Source: a virus. Taken from it: DNA of 24,038 nucleotides. The stretch covers positions 1-24,038 of the IMG/VR virus record IMGVR_UViG_3300006175_000029; one strand, given 5' to 3'. The position numbers were made by a program, and so were the translations under genes. Under the pieces are notes generated by a model. The model was given only the letters and a program-made list of their open reading frames with translations, had not been told where the DNA came from and ran no database searches. Positions 65 to 17,948 of this stretch are shown here, one piece after another. Numbering within the stretch: position 1 is the stretch's first letter; every line of letters begins with the position of its first letter.

Positions 65-441
65 CGCGGCGTAAAGAACATTTTGCCGGAGATGCCTAGC
101 CCCTCGAAATCTGGCACCCCGTCTGGATCACCGCTGACAGCAACAGTGAGCGACCCACCAAAGCCTAGGTACTCATACTGACCAAGCAGGTCGATACCGG
201 GGATTAATGGAATGCCGCAGGCGAGGGGATTATTGCTGGCATCCGAGATATCCAGCACCCAATTATCCAGGATGTTGGTATCGATAATCAGGCCGGGTAC
301 CTCGCGGTCAGCACCGGTTGGTGCGCCGAACACCCCTGCATTTGCTTTGCGATAGTTCAAGGCAAAGCTATACGTTACCCCCACCAAGGTGACGGTGAAC
401 GACTGCGGCGATGCGATGAGGGGGATTTCGTAGGTCGGCAT
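61..441 (-). CDS. Phage baseplate plug-family protein (DUF6983-like)
   Basis: A 126-residue protein. It opens with YEIPLIASPQSFTVTL, has a central WVLDISDASNNPLACGIPLI segment, and then IPGIDLLGQYEYLGFGG. This strand-rich layout is characteristic of the small baseplate plug family found beside hub proteins in Mu-like and other myoviruses. It is expected to be a structural baseplate component. The start ATG overlaps the stop of the Dit-like gene by one base (TGATG), and its own stop overlaps the hub start, so all three are probably co-translated. Family assignment is from remembered motif and context, not a search. Confidence 0.8.
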   Translation of the reverse strand: MPTYEIPLIASPQSFTVTLVGVTYSFALNYRKANAGVFGAPTGADREVPGLIIDTNILDNWVLDISDASNNPLACGIPLIPGIDLLGQYEYLGFGGSLTVAVSGDPDGVPDFEGLGISGKMFFTPR

Positions 442-989
442 CAGGCGTTAGGGCCTGCAAGCGCAACCTGGCCACGGCCAACGTTGGCACCGGTTGTCGC
501 GGGATTGACCATCGCCGACTGCGGTACCTGTGTGGTGGCGGTCGAGACGATGATGACCTCGCGGCACACCATGACGGCGTTGAGTGCATACTCAGAAGAG
601 GAATCGGTGACGATGCCTAGCGACTGCACCAGCATATTCTGGTAGCGGGTTTTGCCGGTGTAGATAAAGAACGGCTCCCGCGTCGCCTGCAGGGCCGCTA
701 GGATGTTGTACTGGTCCTGCATAAAGGTGTCGTAGCGACCAGTATTCGACCACGACCAACGCAGCGTCACTTCCCTTGGTTTATTAAAGGCGTGGTCGCT
801 GATCTTCGCACCTTGTTCAACCGGATGGTCGGTGATCTCCAACGTATCGCGGCTGACTTCCTCAATGATGCAATCAGGGATAATGATGCCGTGCTGGGAA
901 TTAATGTAGCGCGGCACACGGATCAGCGCCGCGACCAAGACCTCGGCGGCAGTAATTACGGCGGAGAGTGCGAGTGGGCCAGCAGCCAT
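441..989 (-). CDS. Dit-like phage tail/baseplate protein
   Basis: A 182-residue protein. Its core reads IIPDCIIEEVSRDTLEITDHPVEQGAKISDHAFNKP in short consecutive pieces. The ITDHPVE and ISDHAF elements followed by a strand are hallmarks of the Dit-like N-terminal domain of distal tail/baseplate proteins. Residues 1-30 are hydrophobic and the last 40 are low in complexity. It starts two bases after the stop of the frameshifted chaperone product. In many myoviruses the tape measure gene lies between chaperone and Dit; here nothing does. Its likely role is joining tail tube to baseplate. Confidence 0.8.
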   Translation of the reverse strand: MAAGPLALSAVITAAEVLVAALIRVPRYINSQHGIIIPDCIIEEVSRDTLEITDHPVEQGAKISDHAFNKPREVTLRWSWSNTGRYDTFMQDQYNILAALQATREPFFIYTGKTRYQNMLVQSLGIVTDSSSEYALNAVMVCREVIIVSTATTQVPQSAMVNPATTGANVGRGQVALAGPNA

Positions 990-991
990 CG

Positions 992-1611
992 TCAGCGTCC
1001 CGGCATGTTGGCTTTCTGCACCCGACGCTCGTTCTCGTCGGAGGCATCCAGCGCATCATTCATGATAGCCACATCCGCCAAATCTAACGCCCCATTCTTC
1101 AGTGACTCGTATTGACACAAGCCTCGAATGACCGGCCGCAGCAGCCAGTCCTCACCGTCAGGCAGGCTGACTAGTTCACGGGGCTGACGGAAGTCGTCTG
1201 GGTAGGTGATTGAAATAACGAGGCTGGGGCGGTCATAAAATTTGCTAGGTTCTCCTGCATCACTATAATGGCGATGCGGAGCAGCTGCATGCCGTCGAGG
1301 TCCTCGAACATCAGCCGACCAGCGGGCACGTTCCAGATCGGCGCCCAGATGCCACCGCCCTGTGCCCTTTGTACTACCGAGGCACAGTGGTTTATGATAT
1401 AATTAACATCTTCATCGGGCATCTGCGACAAGCCATCGATGATCGGCCCCATCATCGATAGGAAGGTTGGCCCGGTATCCCCTGACGATTGGGCAGACGG
1501 TACCAACCTAGTGATAAGTGGCGCTACCCTACGCGCTACGTGAAGCTGTTCAAAAGCCGACAGCTTCCTGTTCGTCCGGTACGTGGTACCGTCGATATCA
1601 AACTCACTCAT
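992..1611 (-). CDS. Tail assembly chaperone, predicted -1 frameshift fusion (206 aa)
   Basis: Seen: after the minus-strand heptamer AAATTTT (codons GCA AAT TTT), the -1 frame stays open for 81 codons and ends at TGA 994-992, two bases before the next gene. The extension reads YDRPSLVISITYPDD, then WLLRPVIRGLCQYESLKNG and ALDLADVAIMNDALDASDEN. The second half matches the small DUF6889-type phage family as I remember it. No ATG, GTG or TTG start exists in this frame upstream of the conserved part. Known: tail assembly chaperones commonly use a programmed -1 shift (the lambda G/GT paradigm). Inference: 125 residues of the zero frame are fused to 81 of the -1 frame. Confidence 0.72.
1171..1611 (-). 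CDS. Tail assembly chaperone, zero-frame product (146 aa)
   Basis: This protein lies directly downstream of the tail tube gene and has the composition and position of a tail assembly chaperone. It is helical, with a short N-terminal domain (residues 1-40) and a later segment MFEDLDGMQLLRIAIIVMQ typical of these proteins. The last 21 residues, from MTAPASLFQ to the stop, have low-complexity character. They are replaced by the DUF6889-like segment if ribosomes slip at 1237-1243. The start ATG at 1611 has only a weak GCGGGG ribosome site. Expected role: binding the tape measure protein during tail assembly. Confidence 0.75.
   Translation of the reverse strand: MSEFDIDGTTYRTNRKLSAFEQLHVARRVAPLITRLVPSAQSSGDTGPTFLSMMGPIIDGLSQMPDEDVNYIINHCASVVQRAQGGGIWAPIWNVPAGRLMFEDLDGMQLLRIAIIVMQENLANFMTAPASLFQSPTQTTSVSPVN
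1237..1243 (-). other. Slippery heptamer for -1 ribosomal frameshifting
   Basis: On the minus strand the sequence is A AAT TTT in the zero frame of the chaperone, an exact X XXY YYZ heptamer. A slip moves decoding into an open frame of 81 codons encoding a recognisable domain. A short inverted repeat, GTCAG...CTGAC, lies about 70 bases downstream; a strong adjacent pseudoknot was not identified by eye. Confidence 0.7.
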
Positions 1612-1632: not shown

Positions 1633-2097
1633 CTAGACGACCGTGGTGCCCGGACCCAAGGTCTCAAACACACGGCCGGCATTGAACGCCCACTCAACGA
1701 TGTTGGCGTCTTTTGCCCAGGAGTTGGCTGGCTGACGGCGGAATGCACACTGCATCCCAGTCGTCACGTCACCACGGCTGGAGTCGGTGATAACGATGGT
1801 GTTCAGCCCCCACGTGGCGCTGGTGGCCGATTGGAAGGCGTACGCCGCTGACAGCAGGAAGTTCTGCGAACTCACCTTCAGCAGACGGATGGTGAAGTTG
1901 CCGCCTTGGCCGGCATGCAACGAGTGCATCGGCGCACCATCGGCACCAATCACCAAGGTATCTTTGTCCTCGATCAATTCGACCGAGATACCCGCTTCAC
2001 CCACACCAGCATCCTGCCCTAGGATGATCGCGAGGCCAGGTCCCACAATGGAGCAATTAACGTCGCGGAACGAATATGCAGTAAAGGCCTGTGCCAC
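1633..2097 (-). CDS. Tail tube protein (DUF3277-like structural protein)
   Basis: A 154-residue protein. It begins with YSFRDVNCSIVGPG, has a central TLVIGADGAPMHSLHAGQGG and then FTIRLLKVS, and ends with a GDVTTGMQCAFRR motif and a hydrophobic strand. These are conserved points of the DUF3277/KPP10 ORF10-type structural family, regarded as the tail tube partner of DUF3383 sheaths. The start is GTG at 2097, supported by AGAGGAG about eight bases upstream. It follows the sheath gene, as expected, but is separated from it by 182 bases containing two hairpins. It should polymerise into the inner tail tube. Confidence 0.85.
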   Translation of the reverse strand: MAQAFTAYSFRDVNCSIVGPGLAIILGQDAGVGEAGISVELIEDKDTLVIGADGAPMHSLHAGQGGNFTIRLLKVSSQNFLLSAAYAFQSATSATWGLNTIVITDSSRGDVTTGMQCAFRRQPANSWAKDANIVEWAFNAGRVFETLGPGTTVV

Positions 2098-11758: not shown

Positions 11759-11830
11759 GGCAGCGTAGCTCAGTGGTAGAGCAAGGACTTCATAAGTCCT
11801 GAGCCGGTGGTTCGATCCCACCCGCTGCCA
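11759..11830 (+). tRNA. tRNA with anticodon CAU (Met, or Ile2 if modified)
   Basis: A complete cloverleaf can be drawn. Acceptor GGCAGCG (11759-11765) pairs with CGCTGCC (11823-11829), and A11830 is the discriminator. The D-arm is GCTCAGTGGTAGAGC. The anticodon stem AGGAC/GTCCT encloses loop TTCATAA, anticodon CAT. The T-arm is GGTGG-TTCGATC-CCACC. CCA is not encoded. The G1-C72 pair rules out a typical initiator tRNA. CAU can be elongator Met, or Ile if the host TilS adds lysidine. It ends the plus island and overlaps the sulfotransferase 3' end on the other strand. Confidence 0.95.
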
Positions 11831-12353
11831 TAATATCCATGGGAAACAGCTTAGCCACCAGGGCCAGCGCGGTGTCGTTGTAGTACTCGCTCATAGACAG
11901 CTGAGCAGCAGAGTTTCGATGCTGTAGGTCGAGATCGCCAAGCCCGAGCTTGTCGCATATGGCTTTGAAGTCTTCCTCAAGCCACTCAAATTGCCCGAGC
12001 TCCACGTGACGATCGCCAGCGAAGTACTCCACCTGCTGCCGCATAAGCTGTTGGCCTATAATCCATTCAGCATCTTTGGGCGGGTTGGTGAGGAAGTCGA
12101 TGAAGCCTTGCGGTGTAGGGCGTCGCCTTCTTCGCACATGATATGCGTAGAGTGATAACGCCCGCTGCCACGGATTACGAACAAAGACGACCACTCGATA
12201 ATCGTGATACCCATTCAGAACGGAAATGGGCGAATGGATCCCATGGATCTGCACAATGTCCTGGACGCCTCGAGTGAAGGCCTCCGTAATCGATGATCCT
12301 GCGGTTCTGGGAATATGGACGAAGACAAACCGGTGCTTATGTGAGATCAGCAC
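11790..12353 (-). CDS. Sulfotransferase (PAPS-dependent, family 2-like)
   Basis: A 187-residue protein. HIPRTAGSSI (residues 13-22) is the 5'-phosphosulfate-binding loop, and VVVFVRNPWQRALSLY (residues 54-69), with Arg59 and Ser67, is the 3'-phosphate site. It should transfer sulfate from PAPS to a hydroxyl on a glycan or protein. The usual Lys of the first loop is Arg16. The GTG start follows the adhesin stop with no gap. The last 13 or so residues (AAGGIEPPAQDL and stop) are antisense to the tRNA, so the native C-terminus was probably altered. It is the last gene of the modification-adhesin unit. Confidence 0.83.
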   Translation of the reverse strand: MLISHKHRFVFVHIPRTAGSSITEAFTRGVQDIVQIHGIHSPISVLNGYHDYRVVVFVRNPWQRALSLYAYHVRRRRRPTPQGFIDFLTNPPKDAEWIIGQQLMRQQVEYFAGDRHVELGQFEWLEEDFKAICDKLGLGDLDLQHRNSAAQLSMSEYYNDTALALVAKLFPMDIMAAGGIEPPAQDL

Positions 12354-14660: not shown

Positions 14661-15215
14661 TCAAAAGCCGCGCATCCGGAGATGTTCCTCCTGGGTGAAC
14701 CACGCAAGGACTGAGTACCGCACGCCAGAGCGTATTGGCGGTACTTCGTGTTTGAATGCCCGGCTGTTGGGGAACGCCACCAAGGTACCGGTCATCGGCG
14801 ATATCGTCATGCCGCGCTCGGGGAACGTCAGTTCGCCACCCTGATAATCTGTACCACAGGTGTTCAGGTATAGATTGCAGGTGTGGGAGCGGTGCGGTGT
14901 GTGGTTGGGACCACCCTCATCCGTGCAGTTATCGCAATGCGGCTCACAGAAATCGCCAGGGAAACTGGCTTTCAGTATGCAGTATTCTAGATGGACGAAT
15001 TGCTGGAAGACGCCGCGCACCAACTGCGTCATCTCGTCGCGGTACACCCGCAACGTGGCCAAGGCCGGTGGGTATATCGCCTCCCATGCTGGGATCTCGA
15101 TACGATTATCGGCAACCTTGTTGAGATATCTTTCGGACTGCAGCTTCATCGGCCAGATCAGGTCGTCACACAGCGACGCGGACAGAAAGTCCGAGCGAAC
15201 AAGAACATCGTTCAT
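14661..15215 (-). CDS. 2-oxoglutarate/Fe(II)-dependent oxygenase (prolyl hydroxylase-like) 1
   Basis: A 184-residue protein (ATG at 15215; a TTG one codon upstream is an alternative). The double-stranded beta-helix metal site is visible: His93-x-Asp95 in EPHCDN and distal His156 in AFKHEV, with Arg166 in GVRYS to bind 2-oxoglutarate. LYLNTCGTDYQGGELTFPE is the typical P4Hc core strand. It should hydroxylate a protein, nucleotide or small-molecule substrate using O2. It lies 16 bases downstream of a second oxygenase of the same family, with only partial similarity. Confidence 0.88.
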   Translation of the reverse strand: MNDVLVRSDFLSASLCDDLIWPMKLQSERYLNKVADNRIEIPAWEAIYPPALATLRVYRDEMTQLVRGVFQQFVHLEYCILKASFPGDFCEPHCDNCTDEGGPNHTPHRSHTCNLYLNTCGTDYQGGELTFPERGMTISPMTGTLVAFPNSRAFKHEVPPIRSGVRYSVLAWFTQEEHLRMRGF

Positions 15216-15231
15216 CAATCGCAGCGACCTT

Positions 15232-15783
15232 TCAAAGTACGACTCCTACCAAGGGATCTTGATGAGCTCGATTGCGCGTAAACCATGCGGGCGACGTGTA
15301 GCGTGCGCCACCTCGTGTGGCCTCGACTCCATGGCGAGTTACGGCAGGAAACAATATAAGGGAGCCTTGCACCGGCTGATAATATTCATTTGTCTCAGGG
15401 AAATATATCCGCCCACCTTCATAATCGCTATTAAGGTAAATGACCCCCGCCCACTCACGCCACGGTGTCGCGTTCGGGGAGCCATCTGGGTGGCGATCAT
15501 CCTGATGCGGACTCATGGCCTCTGTAGTCCAGCGCACTATTTGGATGGTGTCTGGGTACATCTGTTGGCGGGCGGCTTCACTAGCGGCGATTGTCTCCCG
15601 ATTGCGCCAACTCTGCATAATTCGTCGCGTCTGAATTTCGCTTTCAGGAAAGCTGGTGATGAACATCACCCGGTGGTCGAAGAACGGGTCACCGTAGACA
15701 TGGGCATTAGCACACCATCTGTCATAGGCTTCAATAACTGTGCGGCATTCGTCCGGACTGGCAAACTGTGCAATCTCGATCAT
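15232..15783 (-). CDS. 2-oxoglutarate/Fe(II)-dependent oxygenase (prolyl hydroxylase-like) 2
   Basis: A 183-residue protein. His93-x-Asp95 in SPHQDD, His151 in VTRHGVE and Arg161 in GARYTSP are the iron and 2-oxoglutarate ligands. AGVIYLNSDYEGGRIYFPE is the core strand pair. The ligand spacing nearly equals that of the next oxygenase, suggesting an ancient duplication or the recruitment of two related enzymes. Its start overlaps the stop of the DUF6065 gene as ATGA. Product unknown; tandem hydroxylases in a virion-adhesin operon suggest modification of a phage or host surface polymer. Confidence 0.88.
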   Translation of the reverse strand: MIEIAQFASPDECRTVIEAYDRWCANAHVYGDPFFDHRVMFITSFPESEIQTRRIMQSWRNRETIAASEAARQQMYPDTIQIVRWTTEAMSPHQDDRHPDGSPNATPWREWAGVIYLNSDYEGGRIYFPETNEYYQPVQGSLILFPAVTRHGVEATRGGARYTSPAWFTRNRAHQDPLVGVVL

Positions 15784-16514
15784 GCCAGGCTCCCACGTTT
15801 ATCTATAGGAGCTTTCAGCCGCACCCTGTTGGTATGCGCCAAATCTGTCTTCTGCCCATCGGCATATCGGCCGACGAAATAATCCTTATCCCAAGGATCT
15901 TTGATCGCAGTCGGATCGCCTTGTGCAAGAAGATCCCGCATCCTGGTACGACGCTCACGCCAAGCATTATGCTGCGCAGAAAACTGCTGGTCGTCAGTTA
16001 TGTTACGAATGACTGGCTGTACATTATCCTGCACATTGGCATGGATTACGCATATCTGCGCATAAGGCTCCCCAGCACTCCAAGCCACCCGACCAGGACG
16101 AGTGAACTTGTAGTTCATGGTGAATGTGTAGGGTAGCCAGTCGCTCTCGACGATGCCGGTCATTGGCGCCACACCATCCTTGAACTGGTTGGTGGGGCCG
16201 GTGATCAGCAAGTGGTACCCGGGCGGTGTGCGGAAGATGTAGGAAACGTCGAGCGTCAGGATGCCGGTGGCAAAATTGCTTTGAGCTTGGTAGAACGGAT
16301 CACCCTTGATTATTCTGACATCAGGTAGGCCGGGACCTCCTGTCCATTCGGCTATAACGTCGCACGGCATGAGGACTTGCCACCCGTACGTATTGGCGAT
16401 GGTGAGGGGCAAACACCGGTAGGCATGCCGGTTCTGGTCCATCCAGTCGCGCTCGCTCGGAGCTGGCACCAATTCTTGTGGATTATTCGTAACGGCGAGT
16501 GCTTCGAGAAGCAT
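15780..16514 (-). CDS. DUF6065 family protein
   Basis: A 244-residue protein. PAPSERDWMDQNRHAYRCLPL, IANTYGWQVLMPCDV, IFRTPPGYHLLITGPTNQFKD and MTGIVESDWLPYTFTMNYKF with TRPGRVAWSAGEP are strongly characteristic of DUF6065. Its function is unestablished; the family is strand-rich and often occurs near oxygenases or glycan-related genes in my recollection. Here it heads the operon that continues through two 2OG oxygenases to the adhesin and sulfotransferase, with overlaps or very short gaps. AGGATTCTG before the ATG is the likely ribosome site. It starts about 80 bases after the terminator element. Confidence 0.8.
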   Translation of the reverse strand: MLLEALAVTNNPQELVPAPSERDWMDQNRHAYRCLPLTIANTYGWQVLMPCDVIAEWTGGPGLPDVRIIKGDPFYQAQSNFATGILTLDVSYIFRTPPGYHLLITGPTNQFKDGVAPMTGIVESDWLPYTFTMNYKFTRPGRVAWSAGEPYAQICVIHANVQDNVQPVIRNITDDQQFSAQHNAWRERRTRMRDLLAQGDPTAIKDPWDKDYFVGRYADGQKTDLAHTNRVRLKAPIDKRGSLA

Positions 16515-17400: not shown

Positions 17401-17587
17401 GATTATTTCCTCGTGGGATAAAGACGTGGTAGTGCCCGAGGCTGTCGCGCGAGAGACAGCTACCCGAGCCGAAGTACCCCAGCTCTTCTAGGTCGGCGAG
17501 CTTCTCCTGCGCCTTAGCCTGGCGTTCCTCTGGCGTTTCGTCGCGCGTCTGTCGGCAGCTCAGACAGCCACAACCTCTATTACGCAT
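17366..17587 (-). CDS. Small cysteine-containing protein (73 aa)
   Basis: Starts MRNRGCGCLSCRQTRDETPE, with CxCxxC near the N-terminus and one more Cys around residue 44. A charged helix and then SLGHYHVFIPRG follow, and the end is basic (RRKSRAAR). Both ends overlap neighbours (8 bases with the iron permease gene, 35 with the next), so it is translationally linked to them. A metal-binding role is possible from the Cys cluster; no family recognised. Confidence 0.55.
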   Translation of the reverse strand: MRNRGCGCLSCRQTRDETPEERQAKAQEKLADLEELGYFGSGSCLSRDSLGHYHVFIPRGNNHGGRRKSRAAR

Positions 17588-17948
17588 GGGGGTTCTCGTC
17601 GGAGATTTGGTCGAAATCTAACTTCAACTGCTCCAGCTGGCGCTCGGTGAGCTTTTCCAGCCGTATCATGCGATTATGCGCGTGCTCGTTAGCCCGGATT
17701 AATTCATCCAGCTTTAAGTTTATCTCGAGCGTGTCGCGGTTTTGGGTGTTTTGCAGCAGGAAGATCATGAGGTACGTGGCGATAGTCGTGCCGGTATTGA
17801 TCAAGAGCTGCCAGGTATCGGAGTAATTGAAGATCGGGCCGGTGATGCCCCAGACAATAACTATCGTAACTCCGATAGCGAAGGAGCGTGCGTGGCCTAG
17901 CTGCGTCGCACAGAAGCGAGCAACCCGACCGAACCAAGCGTCCACCAT
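17580..17948 (-). CDS. Low-affinity iron permease-family membrane protein
   Basis: A 122-residue protein. GHARSFAIGVTIVIVWGITG (first membrane helix, residues about 22-40) and SDTWQLLINTGTTIATYLMIF (second, about 43-64) precede QNTQNRDTLEINLKLDELI, the family signature. HNRMIRLEKLTERQLEQL continues as a cytoplasmic helix. The PF04120-type family is widespread in proteobacteria and annotated as low-affinity iron permease, although transport by small members is unproven. Phage copies are uncommon in my experience. GGAGGAG lies upstream. The terminator at 17983-18016 lies 35 bases ahead, so initiation or read-through is unclear. Confidence 0.85.
   Translation of the reverse strand: MVDAWFGRVARFCATQLGHARSFAIGVTIVIVWGITGPIFNYSDTWQLLINTGTTIATYLMIFLLQNTQNRDTLEINLKLDELIRANEHAHNRMIRLEKLTERQLEQLKLDFDQISDENPHA

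Follow-up and report, generated by a model that had tools for sequence, protein, structure and literature searches.

A tail assembly chaperone very probably extended by -1 frameshifting into a DUF6889 domain in an IMG/VR virus

Tail assembly chaperones produced through frameshifting are an already known kind of protein. In phage lambda, both chaperone forms, gpG and gpGT, attach to the tape measure protein, and through its T part gpGT also binds the tube protein (PMC5009743); the long form is minor and arises from a -1 slip near the end of the tail chaperone gene (Xu et al. 2004, as cited in PMC5009743). In the Vandenendeviridae, as in Pseudomonas phage Adele, the -1 shift of the tail chaperone takes place at a conserved T-rich GTTTTT, and the downstream frame is usually misannotated as a separate gene (PMC12846349). 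According to the description in PMC10885494, T4-like phages obtain their short and long chaperones from separate genes (Vladimirov et al. 2022). Closest to the locus considered here are Klebsiella phage Mulock (MN098327), in which CPT_Mulock_015 is a joined CDS over DUF6889 noted as 'tape measure chaperone frameshift product', and Burkholderia phage Magia (MT701587), in which the joined CDS CPT_Magia_016 carries the same note. The frameshift in the DUF6889 family is therefore already annotated, and the Magia genome announcement reports the chaperone frameshift product (PMC7883833), so that the combination of chaperone and DUF6889, which a preliminary description of our locus considered possibly undescribed, is not new. 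None of the papers searched mentions DUF6889.

The window, that is, the whole stretch of DNA that was analysed, covers positions 1-24,038 (24,038 nt, one strand) of IMG/VR virus record IMGVR_UViG_3300006175_000029. Its locus resembles those of Mulock and Magia in having a homologous chaperone with a DUF6889 extension, readable as a -1 joined CDS, and an equivalently placed slip site. It differs from them in that the identity over the domain is about 50-56% and that the tape measure gene directly follows their locus but not that of the window. From its sequence, the window locus very probably gives rise to a short and a long form of a tail assembly chaperone by means of -1 ribosomal slippage at A AAT TTT.

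The chaperone locus and its reading frames

The minus strand of the window carries a contractile-tail module of tail terminator, sheath (DUF3383), tube-type protein, chaperone, Dit-like protein and Pam3 gp18-like plug. The features around the chaperone are the following:

1633..2097, minus strand: preceding gene, tail tube-type structural protein (KPP10_Orf10; PF11681, E=3.5e-44)
1171..1611, minus strand: tail assembly chaperone, short form, 146 aa (Phage_TAC_15 / phrog_1688)
1252..1256, minus strand: Shine-Dalgarno-like AGGAG, ending 8 nt ahead of the heptamer, a possible stimulator as read from the sequence
1237..1243, minus strand: slippery heptamer A AAT TTT, in frame, kept in the relatives L001-L003
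992..1240, minus strand: -1 frame extension FYDRPSLV...NMPGR and stop, 82 aa from the shared Phe codon (81 new codons), an open frame with no start of its own
1010..1117, minus strand: DUF6889 domain (PF21829; phrog_4364) within the extension, from Pfam and PHROG matches
441..989, minus strand: next gene, Dit-like baseplate protein (PF21821, E=1.6e-31)

The 146-aa ORF matched Phage_TAC_15 (PF21822) in Pfam over positions 2-126 of the 127 in the model (E=1.2e-21; 78 bits, with a curated cut-off of 22 bits) and the phrog_1688 'tail assembly chaperone' (E=3.6e-26). The heptamer noticed in the preliminary description was found again at 1243-1237 of the minus strand, where the codons of the chaperone ORF read GCA AAT TTT ATG. 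A -1 slip at this site would join ...ENLANF to YDRPSLV..., with 81 codons following up to the TGA at 994-992, which ends two bases ahead of the ATG of the next gene at 989, also as described. The -1 frame stays open as far back as 1402. A list of ORFs with start codons (50 aa) contained none in this frame, and its first ATG, GTG or TTG is a TTG within the conserved core, which agrees with the view that no usable start precedes the conserved part. A search with the -1 frame peptide had been recommended, and the peptide matched DUF6889 with 60.3 bits, the curated cut-off of PF21829 being 23.9 bits (E=1.5e-16; residues 42-77 of the extension, P0001, on positions 1-36 of the 40 in the model), as well as phrog_4364 (E=1.1e-20). 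Both are families of unknown function.

Elsewhere on the minus strand of the window, two adjacent genes for 2OG-Fe(II) oxygenases and one for a DUF6065 protein (E=1.1e-80) are located amid structural genes (14661-15218, 15232-15783 and 15780-16514), and a small protein encoded at 17580-17948 matched low affinity iron permease (PF04120, E=3.3e-46), which is unusual for a phage contig. A tRNA-Met (CAT) gene on the plus strand (11759-11830) overlaps the end of an ORF on the opposite strand (11790-12353, minus) that matched sulfotransferase (PF03567, E=3.9e-6).

Conservation in relatives and natural fusions

A heptamer at one locus alone is weak evidence. The 20 window genes contained 3 in-frame heptamers in 4,800 codon registers when Z was allowed to be any base, and codon shuffling of the overlap at the window locus alone gave a heptamer in about 11% of trials. 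It is the conservation across relatives that is decisive. For this comparison, 155 usable loci came from scans of viral contigs and bacterial genomes, plus Mulock, Magia and a Bordetella phage. DUF6889 was in the -1 frame of the chaperone at 151 of the 155, with an equivalently placed slip site (the full heptamer or at least T TTT), a conservation expected of tail chaperones with a programmed -1 frameshift of the lambda G/GT kind. The heptamer was present in 63 of 67 distinct relatives, against 5.6 expected, or in 64 when counting L043, whose slip site sits at the edge of the overlap. At the level of distinct sites, a full X XXY YYZ occurred at 109 of 128 and T TTT alone at 19, the latter often within GCCTTTTA.

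Full heptamers across the relatives included A AAT TTT, T TTT TTN, C CCT TTT, G GGA AAT (4 of the 109) and others. The heptamer of lambda is G GGA AAG, unlike the A AAT TTT or T TTT TTN of the window family. The letters of the slip site vary, whereas its position and the reading of the -1 frame immediately past it, F-[FY]-x-R in nearly all relatives, are constant. The comparison of homologous loci proposed in the preliminary description thus found the slip site kept in close and distant relatives, and the signal for frameshifting is genuine and old.

The DUF6889 core evolves as a protein, in line with its conserved appearance in the window. Among 190 pairs of loci that are 80-97% identical, the core differed 2575, 625 and 272 times at codon positions 3, 1 and 2 of the -1 frame, respectively, the codon changes being synonymous in 2400 cases and nonsynonymous in 617; as sequences recur among the pairs, these counts describe the pattern and do not test it. 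The window and L001 differ at 22 positions ahead of the slip site and at 3 past the overlap, all 3 of them third positions of the -1 frame, while the 73-nt overlap itself, which codes in both frames, contains no difference (P=0.017).

The four exceptions among the 155 loci are L037 and three Methylobacterium loci, L136, L140 and L141 (the last listed as L141/L165), in which chaperone and DUF6889 are a single uninterrupted in-frame gene. At the joint, L136 and L140 read LQPFFSRK, the F-F-x-R that slippage would yield. The tape measure gene is upstream of the fused gene at the fusion loci, and the same genomes also encode separate short chaperone matches, one at G001:C88:4754-5149, with another gene starting 3 nt later, and two further ones on G002:C124; both forms therefore occur as separate genes. 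Because Methylobacterium encodes the fused and short forms separately, there is strong evidence that the fused chaperone-DUF6889 protein is the functional product. The same alternative to frameshifting is found in the T4-like phages as described in PMC10885494, from which the window virus differs in that it would itself use a frameshift.

The fused protein of L140 was modelled with AlphaFold2 from an alignment of the three fused proteins, the short chaperones and the -1 peptides (pLDDT 87, pTM 0.82). The predicted structure consists of a chaperone domain closing in a long helix (111-131), a linker and three DUF6889 helices. For the extension of the window, AlphaFold2 placed helices at residues 31-38, 44-48 and 54-78. 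In a fold search with this model, the named viral structures that matched were mostly tail assembly chaperones, and among the weaker matches was the tail assembly chaperone of Citrobacter phage Moogle (E=0.03). The fold search of the PDB gave no match at E<=0.001, and searching the solved structures by sequence brought no useful match.

Because DUF6889 is in the -1 frame at nearly all loci, is constrained at the protein level and is fused in frame in Methylobacterium, the long chaperone form is very probably the product of -1 ribosomal frameshifting. The conservation of both heptamer and frame supports the programmed slippage into DUF6889 that had been suggested from the window sequence.

Other explanations for the frame change

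An alternative is that DUF6889 is a separate small gene, using its own start codon or coupled re-initiation at the chaperone stop, and we regard this as very improbable. Several GenBank records do annotate it as such (RCIP0034_00015, Hafnia phage yong1 and BgManors32), but certain annotated starts fall inside the homologous region and one further record leaves the DUF6889 region largely unannotated. An independent start in homologues was looked for. An in-frame start was present within 75 nt of the domain at 15 of the 155 loci, in positions that are not conserved, whereas there was none in the 75 nt preceding the domain at the other 140, nor any ATG, GTG or TTG ahead of the core in the window. 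In addition, the -1 frame peptide is conserved right back to the slip site, natural in-frame fusions exist, and a separate gene could be in any frame, yet the -1 frame is the one found at 151 loci.

There is similarly little chance that RNA polymerase slipping on the T run, and not the ribosome, changes the frame. Many relatives have 6-7 T, which would suit such slippage, but the window has only AAATTTT, and only four T are present in many other relatives (in the contexts AAATTTTA, 18; CCCTTTTA, 13; and GCCTTTTA, 11). A run of four T is too short for efficient transcriptional slippage, and the register fits tandem tRNA slippage.

A sequencing or assembly error that broke the frame of one fused gene can be dismissed as the explanation, since the independent contigs L001, L002 and L003, which come from other samples, show identical frames (in L001, despite 25 substitutions, there are 0 indels across the stretch) and 148 other loci agree, even though the Methylobacterium genes are in-frame fusions and L037, with 8 T against 7 T in the near-identical L043, has both halves in one frame, probably through such an error or a recent indel.

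With -1 ribosomal slippage as the preferred explanation, signals that could stimulate it were considered. A downstream RNA structure was rejected as the stimulator in the window, which has no significant structure downstream of the slip site (z=-0.38) and lacks the stem of the TTTTA subgroup. In that subgroup, a stem begins 6 nt past the run (e.g. GGGCTGCT...AGCAGCCC and GATCTGCT...AGCAGGTC), and in 17 of 34 sequences all 8 of its 8 pairs form; the mean number of pairs is 7.1, compared with 6.2 in shuffles, and there are base changes on both sides that keep the pairing. The compensatory stem-loop was observed in L106, L110, L145, L147, L152 and others, which are Acinetobacter, Burkholderia and Achromobacter relatives. 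It was absent in the TTTTT group (5.7 against 5.7 for shuffles). RNAalifold on a MAFFT alignment found no consensus structure, probably owing to loops of varying length and to 3' arms that fail to align. Upstream of the slip, Shine-Dalgarno-like sites were only slightly stronger than in synonymous resampling across 100 relatives.

The tape measure gene and a role in tail assembly

Chaperone genes of this kind usually, though not by definition, have the tube gene on one side and the tape measure gene on the other. The tube gene precedes the window chaperone, and nearly all of the other relatives whose sequence extends far enough have the order tube, chaperone, tape measure. In the window and L001-L003, the Dit-like gene adjoins DUF6889 (gap about 0) and is directly followed by the plug and hub genes (region 1-992 of the window), whereas other relatives with enough sequence have a gap of 1.4-3.6 kb, the size of a tape measure gene, with Methylobacterium L141 as the one further exception. 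Among the larger ORFs of the window there was no protein family match suggesting a tape measure protein, and a search for longer contigs past the hub gene gave no near-identical extension. Since the record is only a fragment, a tape measure gene may be located past the end of the contig, or it may be lost.

We infer that most ribosomes would pass A AAT TTT unshifted and terminate at 1171, giving the short form, TAC-N, while a minority would slip one base back on AAT TTT and terminate at 992. The slipped product, TAC-NC, would have 206 aa and consist of TAC-N, the linker and the three-helix DUF6889 domain. The long form would work in the manner of lambda gpG/gpGT, and a role of DUF6889 in tail assembly is proposed by this analogy: the common N part would cover the tape measure protein, the less abundant copies that end in DUF6889 would bring in tail tube subunits, and TAC-N and TAC-NC would both then depart from the growing tail. 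The family differs from lambda in corresponding to the Phage_TAC_15 and DUF6889 models and in belonging to a contractile tail.

The likeness to the Vandenendeviridae is that a -1 shift at a conserved T-rich site is accompanied by a second frame often called as a separate gene; the matches that DUF6889 had in the phage collection at E<=1e-3 included no Vandenendeviridae record. In most records examined, the DUF6889 frame is a truncated hypothetical gene, unannotated or misnamed. One such record is that of Klebsiella phage ST16-OXA48phi5.2 (L184), in which the frame at 834-986 is labelled 'NTP pyrophosphohydrolase' with a start inside the homologous region, likely a misannotation.

What is new here is modest: DUF6889/phrog_4364 is the recoded half of a Phage_TAC_15 chaperone at nearly every locus found. 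We lean towards a broader interpretation, in which DUF6889 is essentially never free and acts, as this recoded C-terminal half, like the T domain of lambda. At least one lineage, the Methylobacterium prophages, would have swapped the frameshift for a fused long gene and a separate short gene, with the tape measure gene moved, and the window virus would represent another lineage, whose cassette became separated from its tape measure gene without losing the frameshift. The Methylobacterium fusions provide a natural control for the appearance of the recoded protein. In this way an unknown Pfam family would gain a role that can be tested, as the tip that frameshifting adds to a tail chaperone in many proteobacterial phages and prophages.
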